A stretch of DNA of 64,000 nt from assembly GCA_031291755.1 (NCBI GenBank), contig JARLIK010000019.1, positions 62,001 through 126,000 of the forward strand. The letters are read 5' to 3'. Below the pieces are notes generated by a model that was not told where the DNA came from, made no database searches, and saw nothing but the letters and a program-made list of their open reading frames with translations. Source of the DNA: Acidocella sp. (GTDB taxonomy: Bacteria > Pseudomonadota > Alphaproteobacteria > Acetobacterales > Acetobacteraceae). The position numbers and the translations under genes are program-made. This document shows, piece by piece, positions 36,072 to 42,225 of the stretch; position 1 is the stretch's first letter; every line of letters starts with the position of its first letter.

Positions 36072-37058
36072 TTGACGAGCCGGGTTATGGGCCTCAAACC
36101 GCCCCGCATGGAGATTGCGCGAATATTATGCACGGATTTGGCCGGGTTACGGGCTCAGGCCATAGGACTGGCGGAGGCCGCTGGTTTGACCCCGGATTTA
36201 CGGACATTAACAATCAAAAAGCCCTGGTCGGGGCTGTCACCCAGCCTGTGGCCAAACCCTTTGAAAGCCGTTGATGAAGCAGCCGTTGCCGGACCTTTGC
36301 CGCGATTGATCATTGGCTGCGGTGGGGCGGGCGCACGTGTTGCGGCGGCTCTGCGTGGGCCGAATGTTAAGGTTGTCGTTATTCAGCATCCCCGCATGGC
36401 ATTGAAAAAGTTTGATTTGGTATTTGCGGGTCGCCATGACGGTATCGCCGGTGCCAATGTGGTCGTCACACGTAATGCATTGCATCGGGTTACTATGCAG
36501 CGTCTGGCCGCTGAGGCTGATTTATGGCGTCCTTTTTTTGCGCCGCAAAATCGCCCTTTGGTCGCGGTTTTGCTGGGGGGCAGCAATGGCCGCTACCGGT
36601 TCGACGCCGCCGCTGCAGAGCAATTTGCGAGGCAACTGGCCGCGATGATGGAGCGGGATGGGACTGGCCTGGTTATCACGCCGTCGCGCCGGACCAGCCA
36701 TGAGGTTGTTTCCATCCTGCGGCGGGTTTTGGAACCGCTGGGCGCATGGATTTGGGACGGTACTGGCGAGAATCCTTATTTCGGGATGCTCGGCGTTGCC
36801 GACGCAATTATTGTGAGCGCCGATTCAGTCTCAATGGTGTCAGAGGCCGTGGCGACCTCAAAGCCCGTTTTCCTGTTGCGGTTGCCTGGTAAATCGTCCC
36901 GAATTGGGGCCTTTATGGACATGCTGGTGGCTGATGGCCGGGTCCGGGACTTTGCCGGCCGGTTTGAGACATGGGATTGTGAGCCACTTGACGATACGCC
37001 GCTGGCAGGTGCGAGATTGCGGCAATTGTTGGAAGTCCAAGAGAGCGGTTCATGTTAG
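36072..37058 (+). CDS. ELM1/GtrOC1-family protein
   Basis: A 328-aa protein resembling the ELM1 (DUF1022) family, a glycosyltransferase-like fold known from plant mitochondrial fission factor ELM1 and from bacterial putative lipopolysaccharide glycosyltransferases. Typical parts: G-L-A-E-A-A-G-L near the start, C-G-G-A-G-A-R-V-A, V-V-I-Q-H-P-R-M-A, L-L-G-G-S-N-G-R-Y and D-S-V-S-M-V-S-E-A with K-P-V-F-L. I use the TTG start because AAGG is 7 nt upstream; ATG 36087 is possible. The last seven bases overlap the next gene, so the two are probably co-translated. Confidence 0.75.
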   Translation: MTSRVMGLKPPRMEIARILCTDLAGLRAQAIGLAEAAGLTPDLRTLTIKKPWSGLSPSLWPNPLKAVDEAAVAGPLPRLIIGCGGAGARVAAALRGPNVKVVVIQHPRMALKKFDLVFAGRHDGIAGANVVVTRNALHRVTMQRLAAEADLWRPFFAPQNRPLVAVLLGGSNGRYRFDAAAAEQFARQLAAMMERDGTGLVITPSRRTSHEVVSILRRVLEPLGAWIWDGTGENPYFGMLGVADAIIVSADSVSMVSEAVATSKPVFLLRLPGKSSRIGAFMDMLVADGRVRDFAGRFETWDCEPLDDTPLAGARLRQLLEVQESGSC

Positions 37059-38947
37059 ACATCGAAACATTCGACAATCGGCGCGGTGGCAATGTCGTTT
37101 ATAAGGCGTTGGCGCACCCTCTCGCGGCTGGGGCGCTGGCCCGGTTGGCGTTGAAGCTCAATAAGGCGGGCTCGACGGCGATATATGATCCGGACGGCAT
37201 TGCGGGCCCGTTGCTGGCGTTGAGTCCGGCAATCAATATCGAAGGTATTTATGTGCATGACACTCTGGCGGTGGGCGAGGCGCGTGGGAGCCATATTGCC
37301 CGTGCCCTGACCGAACTGCCGCATTCAAGCGCCGTCACAGTGCTTATTGCAGCGTTTGATGCCGGCCGGTTGGCTGCACGGATAAAAGCATTGTTGCCTG
37401 CGGCTTTGACTGTTGTGACGCTTGATGAAGTTAAGTTGCCAGAGCCCTTCATCACGAATGTTAAGCGCTATCTCGACCCGGTGAATTTTGCGACGAATTT
37501 TGTATTTTTTCGGGACGACGATCATTTTGCCACCCGTTTGACCACTGCCAATTACTGGGCGGGTTACGGTGCGCAAGCTGTCAAGTTTTTTCATCTTTTG
37601 TTTAACGATGCAGGGGTCGTTCTGGCGGAATGGGAGACGCCGGCACCACCAAAAGCAGGTGGCTTCATCATTGATAGCTGCGATGTCAGACACAGGTTTA
37701 ATCTTGGGCCATTTACTGGCCAGTTGTTTATTCATGCCGTCGGTGTGGCGGGGCATGATGTCGTTAAATATGCGCTTGATACTTACGCGACTGATAACGG
37801 TGCGTCATTATCGTGTACCCATGATGCCAATGCCTGGCCGTCGGAGAGGTTCGCTGGATTACCAGCGCCACGGCATGATGAAAAAGTCGTTTTATGGATT
37901 CAGAATAGTCACGCTGTCACGATTCCCGCAGGCGCATTGTCGCTTGATCGGATGGGGGCGGAGGTACCGGTCGCGCTGGACATCGAGATTCCGCCGTTTG
38001 CAACGTATCCGGTGGATGTTGCAAATTTATTTCCTGCCTTGCAGTGGCCAGCCCAAATTGAATTGCGGGCGGGGCGGCATTTGGTTAGGCCTCGCTATGA
38101 GGTCACCAGGAAAGGCCGGACGAGAATTGCACATATCAACGTTGAACGCAGTGATCTGCAATCCGATCCTGGCATCAAGACTCTCTCTCCGGCTTTAGGC
38201 CGCGGGTTTTTGTTGCCTTTCCCGATTCTGCCGCGCCGTAACTATAAAACAATTGTGCAGCCAACGCCGATGGCAATTTGCGAAATGAATATGCCGCTGC
38301 GGATCGATATATTTGACGCCGATGGCGTGAAGCTGGCGGAACATTATATGGGAGTGCTGACCCGTCATCATGATGTGGCAGTTGATCTAGATGATCTGCT
38401 GCCGCCCGAAGCGTTGTCAGAAGGCGGGCATGCCGAGCTTGTTTATGATTTTCGAGCAGGTGGAGACGCCAACGGTTGGTTACATGCGCTGTTCCGCTTT
38501 GAGGATCGGTTAAGTGGTCATGCGGCCGAGAGCAGTTTTGGCGCGCATATGTTCAATACGATCATGACCTATAAAGGCGAGCCGCAGTCCTACAATGGTC
38601 CGCCGCCGGGGCTTTCTACGCGCCTGTTCTTAAAGTTGGGGTTTTTGGGCCGCTCGAGTTTTTGCGTGCTGATATATCCTGCCTCGGCCGCCTGGAATGA
38701 AGTATCCAGTACGAAACTGGAGTTATATGACTCGGATGGCACATTGTTGGAGACGAAACCGCTTTCCGTTGTGTGCTCGGGTTCAGTGATTGTCCACCCA
38801 AGGGAGCATTTTGAGGAGGACAAAATCAAGGTTGCTGGCGAAGCAGGTTATATCCTCATCCGAGACGCCACCTGCCGGCTATTTGGCTTTCATGGGGTTA
38901 CCGACGGTGCCGGAAGTTTTTCCCTCGACCATATGTTCGGGTTCTAG
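37052..38947 (+). CDS. unrecognised 631-aa protein coupled to the ELM1-like gene
   Basis: I cannot assign a family. The protein has no signal peptide and no clear membrane segment. Residues 1-215 look like an alpha/beta domain with repeated hydrophobic strands ending in acidic residues (I-Y-D-P-D-G, V-V-T-L-D-E). Residues 215-631 are strand-rich with aromatic and proline residues, suggesting two or more beta-sandwich domains. It starts inside the ELM1-like gene (7-nt overlap), so the two likely work together. Given ELM1-like proteins' link to cell-surface sugar transfer, a role in surface polysaccharide assembly is a guess. A tRNA-Val gene on the other strand follows after about 20 nt. Confidence 0.7.
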   Translation: MLDIETFDNRRGGNVVYKALAHPLAAGALARLALKLNKAGSTAIYDPDGIAGPLLALSPAINIEGIYVHDTLAVGEARGSHIARALTELPHSSAVTVLIAAFDAGRLAARIKALLPAALTVVTLDEVKLPEPFITNVKRYLDPVNFATNFVFFRDDDHFATRLTTANYWAGYGAQAVKFFHLLFNDAGVVLAEWETPAPPKAGGFIIDSCDVRHRFNLGPFTGQLFIHAVGVAGHDVVKYALDTYATDNGASLSCTHDANAWPSERFAGLPAPRHDEKVVLWIQNSHAVTIPAGALSLDRMGAEVPVALDIEIPPFATYPVDVANLFPALQWPAQIELRAGRHLVRPRYEVTRKGRTRIAHINVERSDLQSDPGIKTLSPALGRGFLLPFPILPRRNYKTIVQPTPMAICEMNMPLRIDIFDADGVKLAEHYMGVLTRHHDVAVDLDDLLPPEALSEGGHAELVYDFRAGGDANGWLHALFRFEDRLSGHAAESSFGAHMFNTIMTYKGEPQSYNGPPPGLSTRLFLKLGFLGRSSFCVLIYPASAAWNEVSSTKLELYDSDGTLLETKPLSVVCSGSVIVHPREHFEEDKIKVAGEAGYILIRDATCRLFGFHGVTDGAGSFSLDHMFGF

Positions 38948-39041: not shown

Positions 39042-39184
39042 GATTGGGGAGGCCATCGGATAGTCCTGCTGGGTTTATTTTGTCAACCTTCGGAGATCGA
39101 CTTGGCCTCGCGGAGACGTCATTTCGTGAACTTTGGAAAAGCGTCCCTATAATCAGAGGACAAAAGCTGGAGACCAAAAATATC

Positions 39185-40540
39185 ATGCTCAATCAGTTGG
39201 ACGGGTTTGCTTGGAACAAGTTCCATCGCAGGGCTTCCTTGGCTCTTGGACTAGGCTGGGGCATGGATGCTTTTGAAGTGGCGCTGATCGGCTCAATATT
39301 GGGCGTGTTGGGCCCGCTATGGCATTTAAGTGGCTTTGCACTCTCGGCCATTCTGGGGGCCTGGTTTGCCGGCATCATGCTGGGTGCACTCGGCTTTGGC
39401 GTTTTGGCTGATCGGTATGGCCGCCGGGCGATATTTCTGGCCAGCCTGATCATATATGGTGCGGCAACCTTTCTGACGGCGTTTGCCCCAGGGATTTGGA
39501 TATTGCTGCTTTTGCGATTTGTCGCGGGGGCCGGTGTGGGAGCTGAGTATTCGGCGGTGAATGCGGCGATCGCCGAGTTTATTCCCAGTGCCAAGCGCGG
39601 GTTCGCGGGCAGTTTTGTGATGAATTTCTGGTCGGTTGGCACATTGGTTGCGGCGATGCTGTCCTGGTTGGTTTTGTCGCTTTTACCGTTCGATTTTGGA
39701 TGGCGGATTATATTTGCCTGTGGCGGGGGCGTAGCGCTCGCCACCCTATGGCTGCGGCGGCAGCTGCCTGAGTCGCCCCGTTGGCTACTGGCGCAGGGCC
39801 GGGATGCCGAAGCTGAGTTGGTTATTCAGGCTATTGGCCGGGGTGACGTTCATCTGACCAAGCCGGGAGCTATCAAAGGGCGATTTTTACGGCGGATAAA
39901 AAGGGGCTTTCGGAGCGATTTACGGCCGCTGATTGCTCATCATAAGTCTGTATTGGCATTGGGGTGCGTTCTCGATTTTGCCGAGGCGGGAGGTTATTAT
40001 GGCCTGTTCGCCTTCCTGCCATTGGCCGTTCTGCCGAATCTGCATCTGACAGCAAAGGCGCTGCCGCCATTTTACATTGCGGGCAGTTTGGGGGCCTTGC
40101 TGGGTGGTGTCATGGTGAGCCTGCTATTGGACAGACTAGGCCGAAAACTGGTGGTGAGTTTCTGTTATGGTGCCACGGCTCTGGCTTGTCTGGGGTTTGC
40201 GGAATGGGTGAACGCTCAAATTTGGGTGTTGGCTGCTGGTTATGTCTTGGTAAATATGCTGGCGACGGCCAGTTGGGTTGGAGCTTATCCGACATTTTCC
40301 GAATTGTTTCCCACCCATTTGCGGGCGACCGGCATTGGAATATCGGTCGCGGTTGGACGTGTTGGCGCACTGATATCGCCATTTTTAATAGATTTTGCAG
40401 GCAAAATGGGGTTGGCTGCCGCTCTGGCAGTGCTCGCTGGTTTTTGGTTGATAGGATTTTTGGCCATGTTGGTGTGGTGGTTTGTTGGGGTTGAGGCGAA
40501 TGGCGTACCGCTTGAGCGGCTGAGCAAACTTCCGGCTTGA
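39185..40540 (+). CDS. MFS transporter, AAHS/sugar-porter type
   Basis: A 451-aa inner-membrane transporter with about twelve hydrophobic segments. The opening G-L-G-W-G-M-D-A-F-E-V-A-L is typical of aromatic acid:H+ and related symporters; the cytoplasmic loop G-V-L-A-D-R-Y-G-R-R-A lies between helices 2 and 3, and L-P-E-S-P-R-W-L closes the first half. The frame is open far upstream into the tRNA gene, but ATG 39185 gives the family N-terminus. The stop overlaps the TTG of the radical SAM fusion (TTGA), so transporter and enzyme probably act in one pathway, importing its substrate or exporting its product. Confidence 0.85.
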   Translation: MLNQLDGFAWNKFHRRASLALGLGWGMDAFEVALIGSILGVLGPLWHLSGFALSAILGAWFAGIMLGALGFGVLADRYGRRAIFLASLIIYGAATFLTAFAPGIWILLLLRFVAGAGVGAEYSAVNAAIAEFIPSAKRGFAGSFVMNFWSVGTLVAAMLSWLVLSLLPFDFGWRIIFACGGGVALATLWLRRQLPESPRWLLAQGRDAEAELVIQAIGRGDVHLTKPGAIKGRFLRRIKRGFRSDLRPLIAHHKSVLALGCVLDFAEAGGYYGLFAFLPLAVLPNLHLTAKALPPFYIAGSLGALLGGVMVSLLLDRLGRKLVVSFCYGATALACLGFAEWVNAQIWVLAAGYVLVNMLATASWVGAYPTFSELFPTHLRATGIGISVAVGRVGALISPFLIDFAGKMGLAAALAVLAGFWLIGFLAMLVWWFVGVEANGVPLERLSKLPA

Positions 40541-42225
40541 AGTTGCAGCGTGAAGGCAAGCTGCTGGTTTTCGGCGGCTGCTACAGTAACTTGCAGGCGA
40601 CGCAGGCGTTGTTTGATCAGGCGCGAAGTCTCGGAATTGCCGCTTCGAACATTATATGCACGGGCGATATCATTGCGTATGGTGCCGATGCACAGGCAAC
40701 TCTGGCACTGATCCGGCAGTCGGGCGTTGCCGTGGTGATGGGCAATTGCGAGGAAGCTCTCGGCTTGGAAGCGGACAATTGCGGCTGTGGATTTCCTCGA
40801 GGTTCGGCTTGTGATGTTCTGTCGGCGGCATGGTACGCGCACGCGGTGGCGGATATTGATGAGTCTGATCGGCATTATTTAGCGCATCAGCCGAAAAAAA
40901 TTGAAATTGAAACTGCTGGTAAGAAATTATTGTTTGTGCATGGCAATGTGGAGAGAATAAACGCGTTTGTTTTTCCATCGGCCAGTGATTTAGAGCTTGA
41001 TTATCAGTTGGAGATATCGGGATGCGATGCGGTGATCGCGGGGCATAGCGGTATCCCATTTACCAGGAACTTCGGGCGGAAAATATGGCATAATGCCGGT
41101 AGCATTGGGATGCCTGCGAATGACGGCACGCCGCGGGGCTGGTTTAGCATTATTGATGTCCATGACGGCGAAATCTCGATCGTAAGCCACCCTTTGATCT
41201 ACGATTATCGGGCCGCCGCAGACTCGATGCGGCGGGCTGAATTGCCAGAAGAATACGCTACGGCGCTCGAGACAGGCATTTGGCCCAGCCTGGATATCCT
41301 TCCGGCTGTTGACCGTTATTTCACGGGCATTCCATTTGAAGAGCGGGTGATGGCCGAGGAAATTCCCGCGGTTCAGATGCAGCGGCTGGAAAATTTGTGG
41401 GTGAACACCGGCAGTTTATGCAATCTGGCCTGCAGGAATTGCTTTATGGAAAGCACGCCTACCAATGATCGTTTGGATTATTTTGGGTTGAATGATTTTC
41501 AAACTGTTCTCGCGCAATTACCGGCGTCTGTGACCGAGGTGGGCTTCACCGGTGGTGAGCCTTTCATGAATCCCGACATTATGGCGATGTTGAATACTTG
41601 TCTTGCATCCGGACGGTGCGCGCTGGTTCTGACCAATGCCATGCGTCCGATGCAGCGCCATAAGACGGCGCTTGCGCGGTTGGTTGCAAATCACCCGGGC
41701 TGTTTGGCCGTAAGGGTCTCCTTGGACCATTACCAGCCGAGTCGCCATGACATTTTGCGCGGCGAGGGTAGTTTTAAGTCAAGTTTGGTGGGGTTGAAGC
41801 TGCTGGGGGAACTAGGTGTAAATTTGTCAGTCGCCGCGCGTACCCCTTGGGGTGAGACGGAGGCTATGATGCGCTCCGGATTCGCTGGATTGTTTGCGGA
41901 CCGGGAGATTGGCTTGGATGCCGATAATCCAAATGACCTGGTCCTATTTCCAGAGATGGATACTGATTCTCGAGAAACTATACACGTCACTGACCGGGCG
42001 CTTTCGTTGGTCGGGGACAATAACCCATTGATGTGCAAGAATTCCCGGATGGTGCTGCGGCGTAAGGGAGAGACTGGCGTCAGCTTCACGCCCTGCACGC
42101 TGCTGCCGGACGTCGATCTTGGCCCGTCTCTGGTTCAGGCTTCTGCCCCCATTACCCTGGCACACGCCCATTGCGGGCAGTTTTGCGTGTATGGCGGCGC
42201 CTCATGCGCAGGTGCCCCTGGTTAA
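40537..42225 (+). CDS. metallophosphoesterase-like domain fused to a radical SAM/SPASM-type enzyme
   Basis: A 562-aa two-domain protein. Residues ~9-220 follow the YfcE/MJ0936-type phosphoesterase pattern, but the first metal motif reads V-F-G-G-C-Y-S-N (canonical Gly-Asp-x-His lost at positions 14 and 16) and the last G-H-S-G lacks the final His. Asp44, Asn70, His135 and His170 remain, so one metal site may survive. Residues ~285-562 are a radical SAM domain: C-N-L-A-C-R-N-C (Cys295, 299, 302), the SAM motif G-G-E-P-F (339-343), and C-terminal cysteines 500, 520, 546, 550 and 557 that suit extra Fe-S clusters. The start is TTG, coupled to the MFS gene. The substrate is unknown; no precursor peptide gene is obvious nearby. 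Confidence 0.82.
   Translation: MKLQREGKLLVFGGCYSNLQATQALFDQARSLGIAASNIICTGDIIAYGADAQATLALIRQSGVAVVMGNCEEALGLEADNCGCGFPRGSACDVLSAAWYAHAVADIDESDRHYLAHQPKKIEIETAGKKLLFVHGNVERINAFVFPSASDLELDYQLEISGCDAVIAGHSGIPFTRNFGRKIWHNAGSIGMPANDGTPRGWFSIIDVHDGEISIVSHPLIYDYRAAADSMRRAELPEEYATALETGIWPSLDILPAVDRYFTGIPFEERVMAEEIPAVQMQRLENLWVNTGSLCNLACRNCFMESTPTNDRLDYFGLNDFQTVLAQLPASVTEVGFTGGEPFMNPDIMAMLNTCLASGRCALVLTNAMRPMQRHKTALARLVANHPGCLAVRVSLDHYQPSRHDILRGEGSFKSSLVGLKLLGELGVNLSVAARTPWGETEAMMRSGFAGLFADREIGLDADNPNDLVLFPEMDTDSRETIHVTDRALSLVGDNNPLMCKNSRMVLRRKGETGVSFTPCTLLPDVDLGPSLVQASAPITLAHAHCGQFCVYGGASCAGAPG

Follow-up and report, generated by a model that had tools for sequence, protein, structure and literature searches.

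A metallophosphoesterase-radical SAM fusion of Acidocella as a putative two-domain enzyme of organoarsenical biosynthesis

Which reaction is carried out by a protein that joins a metallophosphoesterase (MPE) domain lacking several metal ligands to a radical S-adenosylmethionine (SAM) domain? This question is raised by a gene located at positions 40537 to 42225 of a 64,000-nucleotide stretch of the Acidocella sp. assembly GCA_031291755.1 (contig JARLIK010000019.1, positions 62,001 to 126,000 of the forward strand; this whole stretch is referred to as the window), which overlaps the preceding gene for a major facilitator superfamily (MFS) transporter. In a preliminary description of the locus, the N-terminal half was regarded as a degenerate MPE that might serve as a binding or gating module, and the two genes as a small unit that makes or moves one metabolite. 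Our analysis suggests, with moderate confidence, that the fusion is an enzyme with two domains from a pathway for organoarsenicals of the arsenosugar type, in which it takes the place of ArsS and carries its own arsenic-reducing or arsenic-holding domain. The features on which the following argument relies are:

39185..40540, + strand: MFS transporter gene, the partner gene (longest open reading frame (ORF) 39044-40540, probable ATG start at 39185)
40537..40540, + strand: TTGA overlap of the MFS stop and the fusion start, seen in the sequence
40537..42225, + strand: MPE-radical SAM fusion gene, 562 amino acids, TTG start, single open frame
40558..41301, + strand: residues 8-255, MPE-fold domain in which the first metal site is lost (PF12850, Foldseek, ligand counts)
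40666..40668, + strand: Asp44, retained second-site ligand (80/80 relatives)
40744..40749, + strand: Asn70, retained ligand, and Cys71, which replaces the His of GNH[DE] (each 80/80)
40780..40788, + strand: Cys82-Gly-Cys84, aligned to the Car1 cysteine pair (79/80 and 80/80; alignment with MPEs of arsenic-resistance operons)
40810..40812, + strand: Cys92, conserved (80/80)
40939..40941, + strand: His135, retained ligand (80/80)
41044..41046, + strand: His170, retained ligand (80/80)
41389..41841, + strand: radical SAM core, residues 285-435 (PF04055)
41419..41442, + strand: CxxxCxxC cluster motif, residues 295-302 (49/51 rows, the other two gapped)
42034..42207, + strand: C-terminal region with Cys500, Cys520, Cys546, Cys550, Cys557 (each 50/51) and His543 (49/51)

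As previously described, one reading frame holds both domains: Pfam detects Metallophos_2 at residues 17-208 and Radical_SAM at residues 290-429, both above their gathering scores, and an AlphaFold model of the entire chain (pLDDT 90.7, pTM 0.87; 47 rows) predicts both domains with confidence. Both halves belong to known superfamilies, and the gene cluster resembles known arsenosugar clusters. Among the matches listed, no NCBIfam model exceeds its cut-off for the radical SAM half, for the MPE without its first metal site or for the fusion, where every one of the matches listed (25 of 51) is below cut-off; a literature search, with most subscription journals outside its scope, found no description of an MPE-radical SAM fusion. 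As the window derives from a draft assembly that is 84% complete, an assembly or annotation artefact had to be considered. A genome survey for the fusion, as proposed in the preliminary description, identified it in one open frame in 13 of 37 genomes of the same genus (whole-genome search, own genome included), and it likewise occupies one open frame in 20 of 80 loci from genome contigs (the best 80 of 134 confirmed). Since the fusion recurs in independent genomes, an artefact is refuted, its probability being practically negligible. Homologues encoded by separate genes, which the preliminary description had taken as a sign of an artefact if their phosphoesterase ligands were intact, do occur in 27 of 82 loci, but the same ligands are missing there.

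The metal site of the N-terminal half was assessed by residue counts in 80 aligned MPE domains, the ligands being assigned to the first or second metal site as is general for metallophosphoesterases. The substitutions noted earlier, Asp14 to Gly, His16 to Tyr and the last His of GHxH to Gly172, are not peculiar to the window: position 14 is Gly in 79/80 domains and Asp in none, position 16 is Tyr in 74/80 and His in none, and position 172 is Gly in 80/80. In addition, the His of GNH[DE], the loss of which had escaped the preliminary description, is Cys71 in all 80. Asp44, Asn70, His135 and His170, correctly described as retained, are each found in 80/80. Thus, while the membership in the calcineurin-like phosphoesterase fold is well supported (PF12850, 38.3 bits with a cut-off of 27; top Foldseek match 3qfm, the Ap4A hydrolase SapH, with an E value of 8e-14 and a TM-score of 0.80 by target length), the complete two-metal set D-H / GD / GNH[DE] / H / GHxH is absent, the first-site ligands and the GNH His being replaced in 80/80. 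By its sequences, this MPE family has lost one metal site and retained the other family-wide. Local decay of an ordinary phosphatase was rejected because the ligand pattern is shared across the whole family; the term "degenerate" is thus appropriate for the lost ligands but not for the history it implies. A cluster of cysteines, also overlooked before, is kept in 79 or 80 of the 80 relatives (C41 79/80, C71 80/80, C82 79/80, C84 80/80, C92 80/80). The conserved cysteines point to redox activity or arsenic binding rather than to gating; the part of the earlier proposal that stands is that the domain is unlikely to act as an ordinary two-metal phosphatase.

A possible role of these cysteines is indicated by MPE relatives on plasmids. 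Outside Roseomonas, the regions of six plasmid matches were inspected, and in three, from Hymenobacter, Paraclostridium and Rubrobacter, the MPE gene resides in an arsenic-resistance (ars) operon; the regions of Picosynechococcus and Haloplanus are not ars operons, and that of Azospirillum is unannotated. The three ars-operon MPEs retain DxH and GHTH, have GNYD, and possess a CGC motif that aligns with C82/C84, a position at which Picosynechococcus has CEC and Haloplanus and Azospirillum have nothing. The window MPE scores 105, 96 and 74 bits with the ars-operon proteins versus 61-64 bits with three general MPEs; its nearest relative was not resolved in a small tree of the window MPE, ars-operon and other MPEs. 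An MPE of Paraclostridium ars operons is reported to share about 40% identity with the arsenate reductase Car1 from Rufibacter tibetensis, for whose activity Cys74 and Cys76, also present in the Paraclostridium protein, are essential (PMC12124457). In the Paraclostridium protein (L113), the cysteines of CGC are situated exactly at positions 74 and 76. Uncharacterised MPE genes in ars operons are reported for Mucilaginibacter (PMC10652896). The likeness to Car1, as described in PMC12124457, consists of the MPE fold, the CGC pair and the occurrence of relatives in ars operons. The window family differs from the three ars-operon MPEs in lacking the DxH motif and the last His of GHxH, and from Car1 in the additional C71 and C92 and in its ties to radical SAM and arsenosugar genes.

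Two other functions of the MPE half are to be weighed against this evidence. As a one-metal phosphoesterase, it could dephosphorylate an intermediate of this very sugar pathway, with the cysteines being structural (zinc or Fe-S). The full second-site set D44/N70/H135/H170 in 80/80 and the proximity of the fold to SapH are in line with such a role, and MTAP, encoded in some related loci (see below), would give a sugar 1-phosphate. However, the whole family lacks residues that two-metal hydrolases use (Asp and His of the first site, the His of GNH and the final His of GHxH), and the two best-scoring outside MPEs among those compared are ars-operon proteins; we regard this explanation as rather improbable. 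Somewhat less so, if still unlikely, is a non-catalytic domain which serves as a carrier of As(III) or as a docking module that feeds the radical SAM site. Several conserved thiols and the loss of the ligands of one metal site would be compatible with a carrier, as would the separate-gene loci, where the MPE is a distinct neighbouring protein in 25/27 cases, indicating that the partners can meet unfused. Against it speak the alignment of CGC with the pair reported to be essential in Car1 (PMC12124457) and the retention of one complete metal site.

The C-terminal half is a member of the radical SAM superfamily (PF04055, 45.7 bits with a cut-off of 29.5). Both the CxxxCxxC motif at residues 295-302 and the five C-terminal cysteines, which had already been recognised, are conserved among 51 radical SAM rows, the former in 49 with the remaining two gapped and each of the latter in 50; together with His543 these cysteines are possible auxiliary Fe-S ligands. 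The nearest structures in Foldseek are BlsE and SkfB. The top NCBIfam score among the matches listed is that of the Rv1681 family (NF049973), yet at 88.9 bits it is far below the cut-off of 380, so that the half is not a member; a verified member from the Mycolicibacterium plasmid locus L207 (536 bits) appears as a weak sister in the tree (support 85/71). A verified Rv1680-type gene (PhnD-like) adjoins this member, and PhnD genes are likewise located near some relatives of the fusion. In the same locus (L207:1391-6765), an MFS gene lies close to the Rv1680-type and Rv1681-type radical SAM genes, the latter two above their cut-offs. With respect to function, two reports describe a radical SAM enzyme that adenosylates arsenic in arsenosugar biosynthesis (PMC12159101, citing the ArsS paper) and ArsL of arsinothricin biosynthesis, which transfers a 3-amino-3-carboxypropyl group to As(III) and comes with a transporter gene (PMC8552651). 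Going by its description, ArsL is thus a precedent for a radical SAM enzyme that uses As(III) and has a transporter gene alongside; its partners are ArsQ, a GntP-type protein, and ArsM (PMC8552651).

The distribution of the two domains was determined in 82 loci, comprising the 80 from genome contigs, a Roseomonas plasmid locus and the window. Both domains are fused in 21 and encoded by separate genes in 27, while 32 loci have the MPE only and two the radical SAM protein only. Fused members occur in Acidocella, Magnetospirillum, Reyranella, Ancylobacter, Pseudolabrys, Afipia, Azospirillum, Bradyrhizobium, Methylopila and others. In 25/27 separate-gene loci the two genes are on the same strand and no more than 300 bp apart, and in 26/27 (the exception being L067) the radical SAM gene precedes the MPE gene, the reverse of the order in the fusion. 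In a tree of 79 MPE domains, five changes between fused and split labels are needed, at least three of them forced by well-supported branches; gains of the fusion and splits are therefore indistinguishable, and a single origin of the fusion was not upheld. A translated plasmid search with the fusion returned 39 records, nearly all via the MPE half. Among Rhodospirillales metagenome-assembled genomes (L055-L104, e.g. L155), separate radical SAM and MPE genes are often situated near genes that by eye resemble metZ, apaG and folE.

A link of the radical SAM half to arsenosugar genes is drawn from the gene neighbourhoods, which were counted over whole loci at E≤1e-10. Among 16 fused loci outside Acidocella (14 of at least 12 kb), TIGR04283 is present in 11, TIGR04282 in 10, VTT in 8 and FADox in 7, followed by PhnD and SSS in 3 each and MFS and MTAP in 2 each. 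The four window-like Acidocella loci all have the MFS gene and none of the other counted neighbours. Of five other Acidocella loci (L157-L161), L160 has neither MFS or FADox nor the two glycosyltransferase genes, and the remaining four share the arrangement MFS-fusion-[FADox-VTT]-TIGR04283-TIGR04282; Acidocella loci L162, L008, L009 and L012, which are cut by a contig end (MFS, fusion, partial FADox-VTT), were excluded from the counts. In the window's own genome, TIGR04282 (156 bits, cut-off 134) adjoins TIGR04283 (201 bits, cut-off 182) on another contig. An Ancylobacter fused locus combines MTAP, a second short radical SAM ORF, the fusion, TIGR04283, TIGR04282, PhnD, PhnE, an ABC ATPase, VTT and FADox. 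Similar in content are the contiguous clusters of two further genomes (G050 and G183), which consist of TIGR04282, FADox-VTT, ArsS, MTAP, TIGR04283, the first-site-less MPE of the fusion family, PhnD, PhnE and another flavoprotein, and in which ArsS is authentic (445 and 438 bits). PhnD of the ArsS cluster and PhnD of the Ancylobacter locus are 74% identical. Judged from these sequences, the fusion occupies the place of ArsS in the Ancylobacter cluster. Overall, TIGR04282, TIGR04283, MTAP, MerA-like/VTT, MFS, SSS and PhnD/E are common to the neighbours of ArsS and of fusion relatives.

The transporter gene fits into the same picture. The TTGA overlap reported before is present, so that the two genes are likely to be translationally coupled; among the matches listed, TIGR00895 is the top NCBIfam match of the transporter, below its cut-off. 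The arsS cluster on a Burkholderia glumae plasmid comprises TIGR04282, TIGR04283, MTAP, a flavoprotein, MFS, a second radical SAM gene and DUF547, and its MFS protein is 48.7% identical to that of the window over 458 amino acids. Together with the MFS gene beside the fusion in 4/5 other Acidocella loci, this strengthens the view that the transporter is part of the unit; the preliminary idea of a unit for one metabolite holds to this extent, and missed the likely class of metabolite, an organoarsenical. Adjoining B. glumae arsS, a "hypothetical" protein is another MPE without the same ligands (profile match, E 2e-14). This MPE type (L163:10951-11970 in B. glumae; L194:11177-12145 and L198:7707-8681 in two sampled genomes, where it is likewise adjacent or close to arsS) has lost the same first-site ligands and kept CGC, and differs from the window MPE, to which it is about 25% identical, in being encoded by a separate gene and in having GNVE and HTC versus GNCE and HxG. 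The L163 protein has no Pfam or NCBIfam match, and a search of plasmids with the MPE adjoining arsS matched 47 records from Burkholderia and, in Azonexus, a single partial relative.

ArsS exceeds its cut-off in 114 of 398 genomes of the phylum, and as a yardstick 30 ArsS loci were chosen by hand from these so as to cover different families. Among the 30, FADox was found in 11, TIGR04283 and TIGR04282 in 8 each, ArsM in 4, MTAP in 3, SSS and the second MPE type in 2 each, and the MPE family of the fusion in none. By these counts, ArsS loci themselves are often devoid of arsenosugar neighbours, and few of them have an MPE gene alongside. The MPE-only loci (n=32) have an SSS-type symporter in 17, PhnE in 2, and ArsC and a FADox2-type flavoprotein in 1 each; in the 27 separate-gene loci (13 of at least 12 kb), TIGR04283 and TIGR04282 occur once each and FADox and SSS twice each. 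The SSS-like symporter (e.g. L069:6581-7960), which reaches 38 bits with TIGR00813, below cut-off, is thus found in 17/32 MPE-only, 3/16 fused non-Acidocella and 2/30 ArsS loci, and it ties the MPE-only loci to ArsS because it is also encoded beside ArsS in L194 and L199.

A second line of evidence is the co-occurrence of the genes in 240 genomes of Alphaproteobacteria from 203 genera, own genome included (E≤1e-30 for the MPE, 1e-40 for the radical SAM half and 1e-35 for TIGR04283). The MPE was detected in 19 genomes, the radical SAM half in 71 (about 30%), TIGR04283 in 90 (81 above cut-off) and ArsS above cut-off only in G050 and G183. TIGR04283 is present in 67/71 genomes with the radical SAM half versus 23/169 without it (both 67, radical SAM only 4, TIGR04283 only 23, neither 146; Fisher 2.9e-34, with relatedness ignored). 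Of the 19 MPE genomes, 16 have the radical SAM half, two more have ArsS, and one (G089, 87% complete) has neither. In some of the radical SAM matches (G090, G174) and arsenite methyltransferase matches (G129, G230, G232) we observed one in-frame TGA each, which might encode selenocysteine; the name of the ArsS model also mentions selenoproteins.

Several findings weigh against an organoarsenical function. The radical SAM half is not ArsS: it scores 69.1 bits with TIGR04167 (cut-off 300) over model positions 2-148 of 303, it falls into a clade separate from ArsS in a tree in which weak radical SAM matches from the same-genus search are outgroups, and DUF3641, the C-terminal domain of ArsS, is not detected in it by Pfam or by hhalign (probability 1.5%; the ArsS of L148 reaches 184.8 bits). 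By score, clade and C-terminal domain, identity with ArsS was rejected, as was a homology of the five-cysteine region to DUF3641, to which there is only a 16-column resemblance (HC..C...SC, E 0.034). The likeness to ArsS consists of the radical SAM core with CxxxCxxC, where the profiles match over 150 columns, a comparison made with no control pair and which any radical SAM pair may fit; the difference is that the fusion is without DUF3641 and joined to an MPE domain. While relatives of the fusion do lie in an ArsS-type arsenosugar neighbourhood, the window shares only the MFS gene with it, and no arsenic genes adjoin the fusion there. The "arsenosugar" label of TIGR04282 and TIGR04283 is an NCBI name only. 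In 25/27 separate-gene and 32/32 MPE-only loci, there is no TIGR04282/04283, MTAP, MerA-like flavoprotein or ArsM nearby, and these loci lend little local support to the arsenosugar link. Moreover, 55/71 radical SAM genomes have no MPE, and the radical SAM half can thus work without it. Finally, arsenite methyltransferase is scarce. When the 78 genomes with the radical SAM half or the MPE were searched with NF008823 (E≤1e-30), 61 gave no match and 17 a match, in 5 above cut-off; matches in MPE genomes amount to 2/19, both below cut-off, and 0/5 Acidocella searched. No ArsM is near the fusion in any of the 25 fused loci that were counted. In favour of the proposed function, 2 of 17 radical SAM loci from other genomes of the class (L214 and L218; hand-chosen, not random) have an ArsM-like gene beside or near the radical SAM gene, although with 204 and 163 bits neither product reaches the cut-off of 263.

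The scarcity of arsenite methyltransferase has to be seen in context. No NF008823 match was obtained in G050 and G183, the genomes with true ArsS, and the ArsM-like protein near ArsS in L187 is also below the model cut-off. Of two other ArsM searches, one gave no match in 8 genomes (with no positive control); the other, which included two known positives, gave weak general matches in 3/7 Acidocella genomes and nothing in the remaining 4. With so few arsenite methyltransferase matches, a full ArsM-ArsS-like path is not seen, and a self-contained ArsM path was rejected since ArsM was not found in 61/78 genomes searched. Therefore, methylated arsenicals are imported, or the substrate is inorganic As(III), or the element is not arsenic. 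In the last case, the oxyanion handled by the pathway would be one of phosphonate/phosphite or selenium, and the names that refer to arsenosugars would mislead. Besides the missing ArsM, such a pathway would agree with the PhnD/E-type transporter genes in 3/16 fused loci outside Acidocella and in the Roseomonas locus, and with a PhnD from these loci, which also scores with phosphonate and selenate models. It is hard to reconcile with the same cluster make-up around authentic ArsS and with the ars-operon relatives of the MPE, and we consider it improbable.

For an organoarsenical enzyme, which we continue to favour, the following course of events may be envisaged, in which we infer arsenic to be the element. 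The MPE half would reduce As(V), be it arsenate or a methylated species, at Cys82/Cys84, with the remaining metal site binding the oxyanion; alternatively, it might hold As(III), with Cys71 and Cys92 involved, and pass it on to the radical SAM half. The latter would cleave SAM and form a bond between As(III) and a carbon radical (probably 5'-deoxyadenosyl), which is the job of ArsS. The MFS protein may move either the arsenical substrate or the product, and MTAP, the flavoprotein and the TIGR04282/TIGR04283 glycosyltransferases, going by their family names, would complete the sugar. In a wider sense, it might be speculated that Alphaproteobacteria, being nearly devoid of ArsS, make organoarsenicals via an unnamed radical SAM family, and that some of them have fused a one-metal Car1-like reductase to it. 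A single polypeptide would then both reduce arsenic and make the As-C bond; since no ArsM was detected in the searched Acidocella, its substrate there may be inorganic arsenic. We put this broader proposal forward only tentatively.

Some further genes of the surroundings may be recorded. In the window, a 631-amino acid ORF (37052-38947) follows an ELM1-type gene, an order kept in Acidocella L032-L034; no Pfam or NCBIfam family exceeds the cut-off among the matches listed for it. Beside fused loci, genes for MNIO proteins (MbnB/TglH/ChrH) occur in L040:931-5396 and L044:2-6361, in the former with DUF2063, together with DoxX, ECF-type and NrsF-like genes; NrsF-like, ECF and DoxX genes are also present in L157:1099-7419 and in the ArsS locus L164:2-3437. 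These sets resemble bufferin operons.

If the proposed function holds true, it would name the missing enzyme in a group of bacteria in which TIGR04283 is found in 90/240 genomes versus ArsS in 2/240, and it would add a further radical SAM route to the As-C bond. It would also show how a phosphatase fold was turned to arsenic chemistry by removing one metal site, and would allow the reduction of arsenic and the capture of the radical to be tested together in a single protein. The gene might then serve as a marker with which to trace the production of organoarsenicals in soil and acid water.

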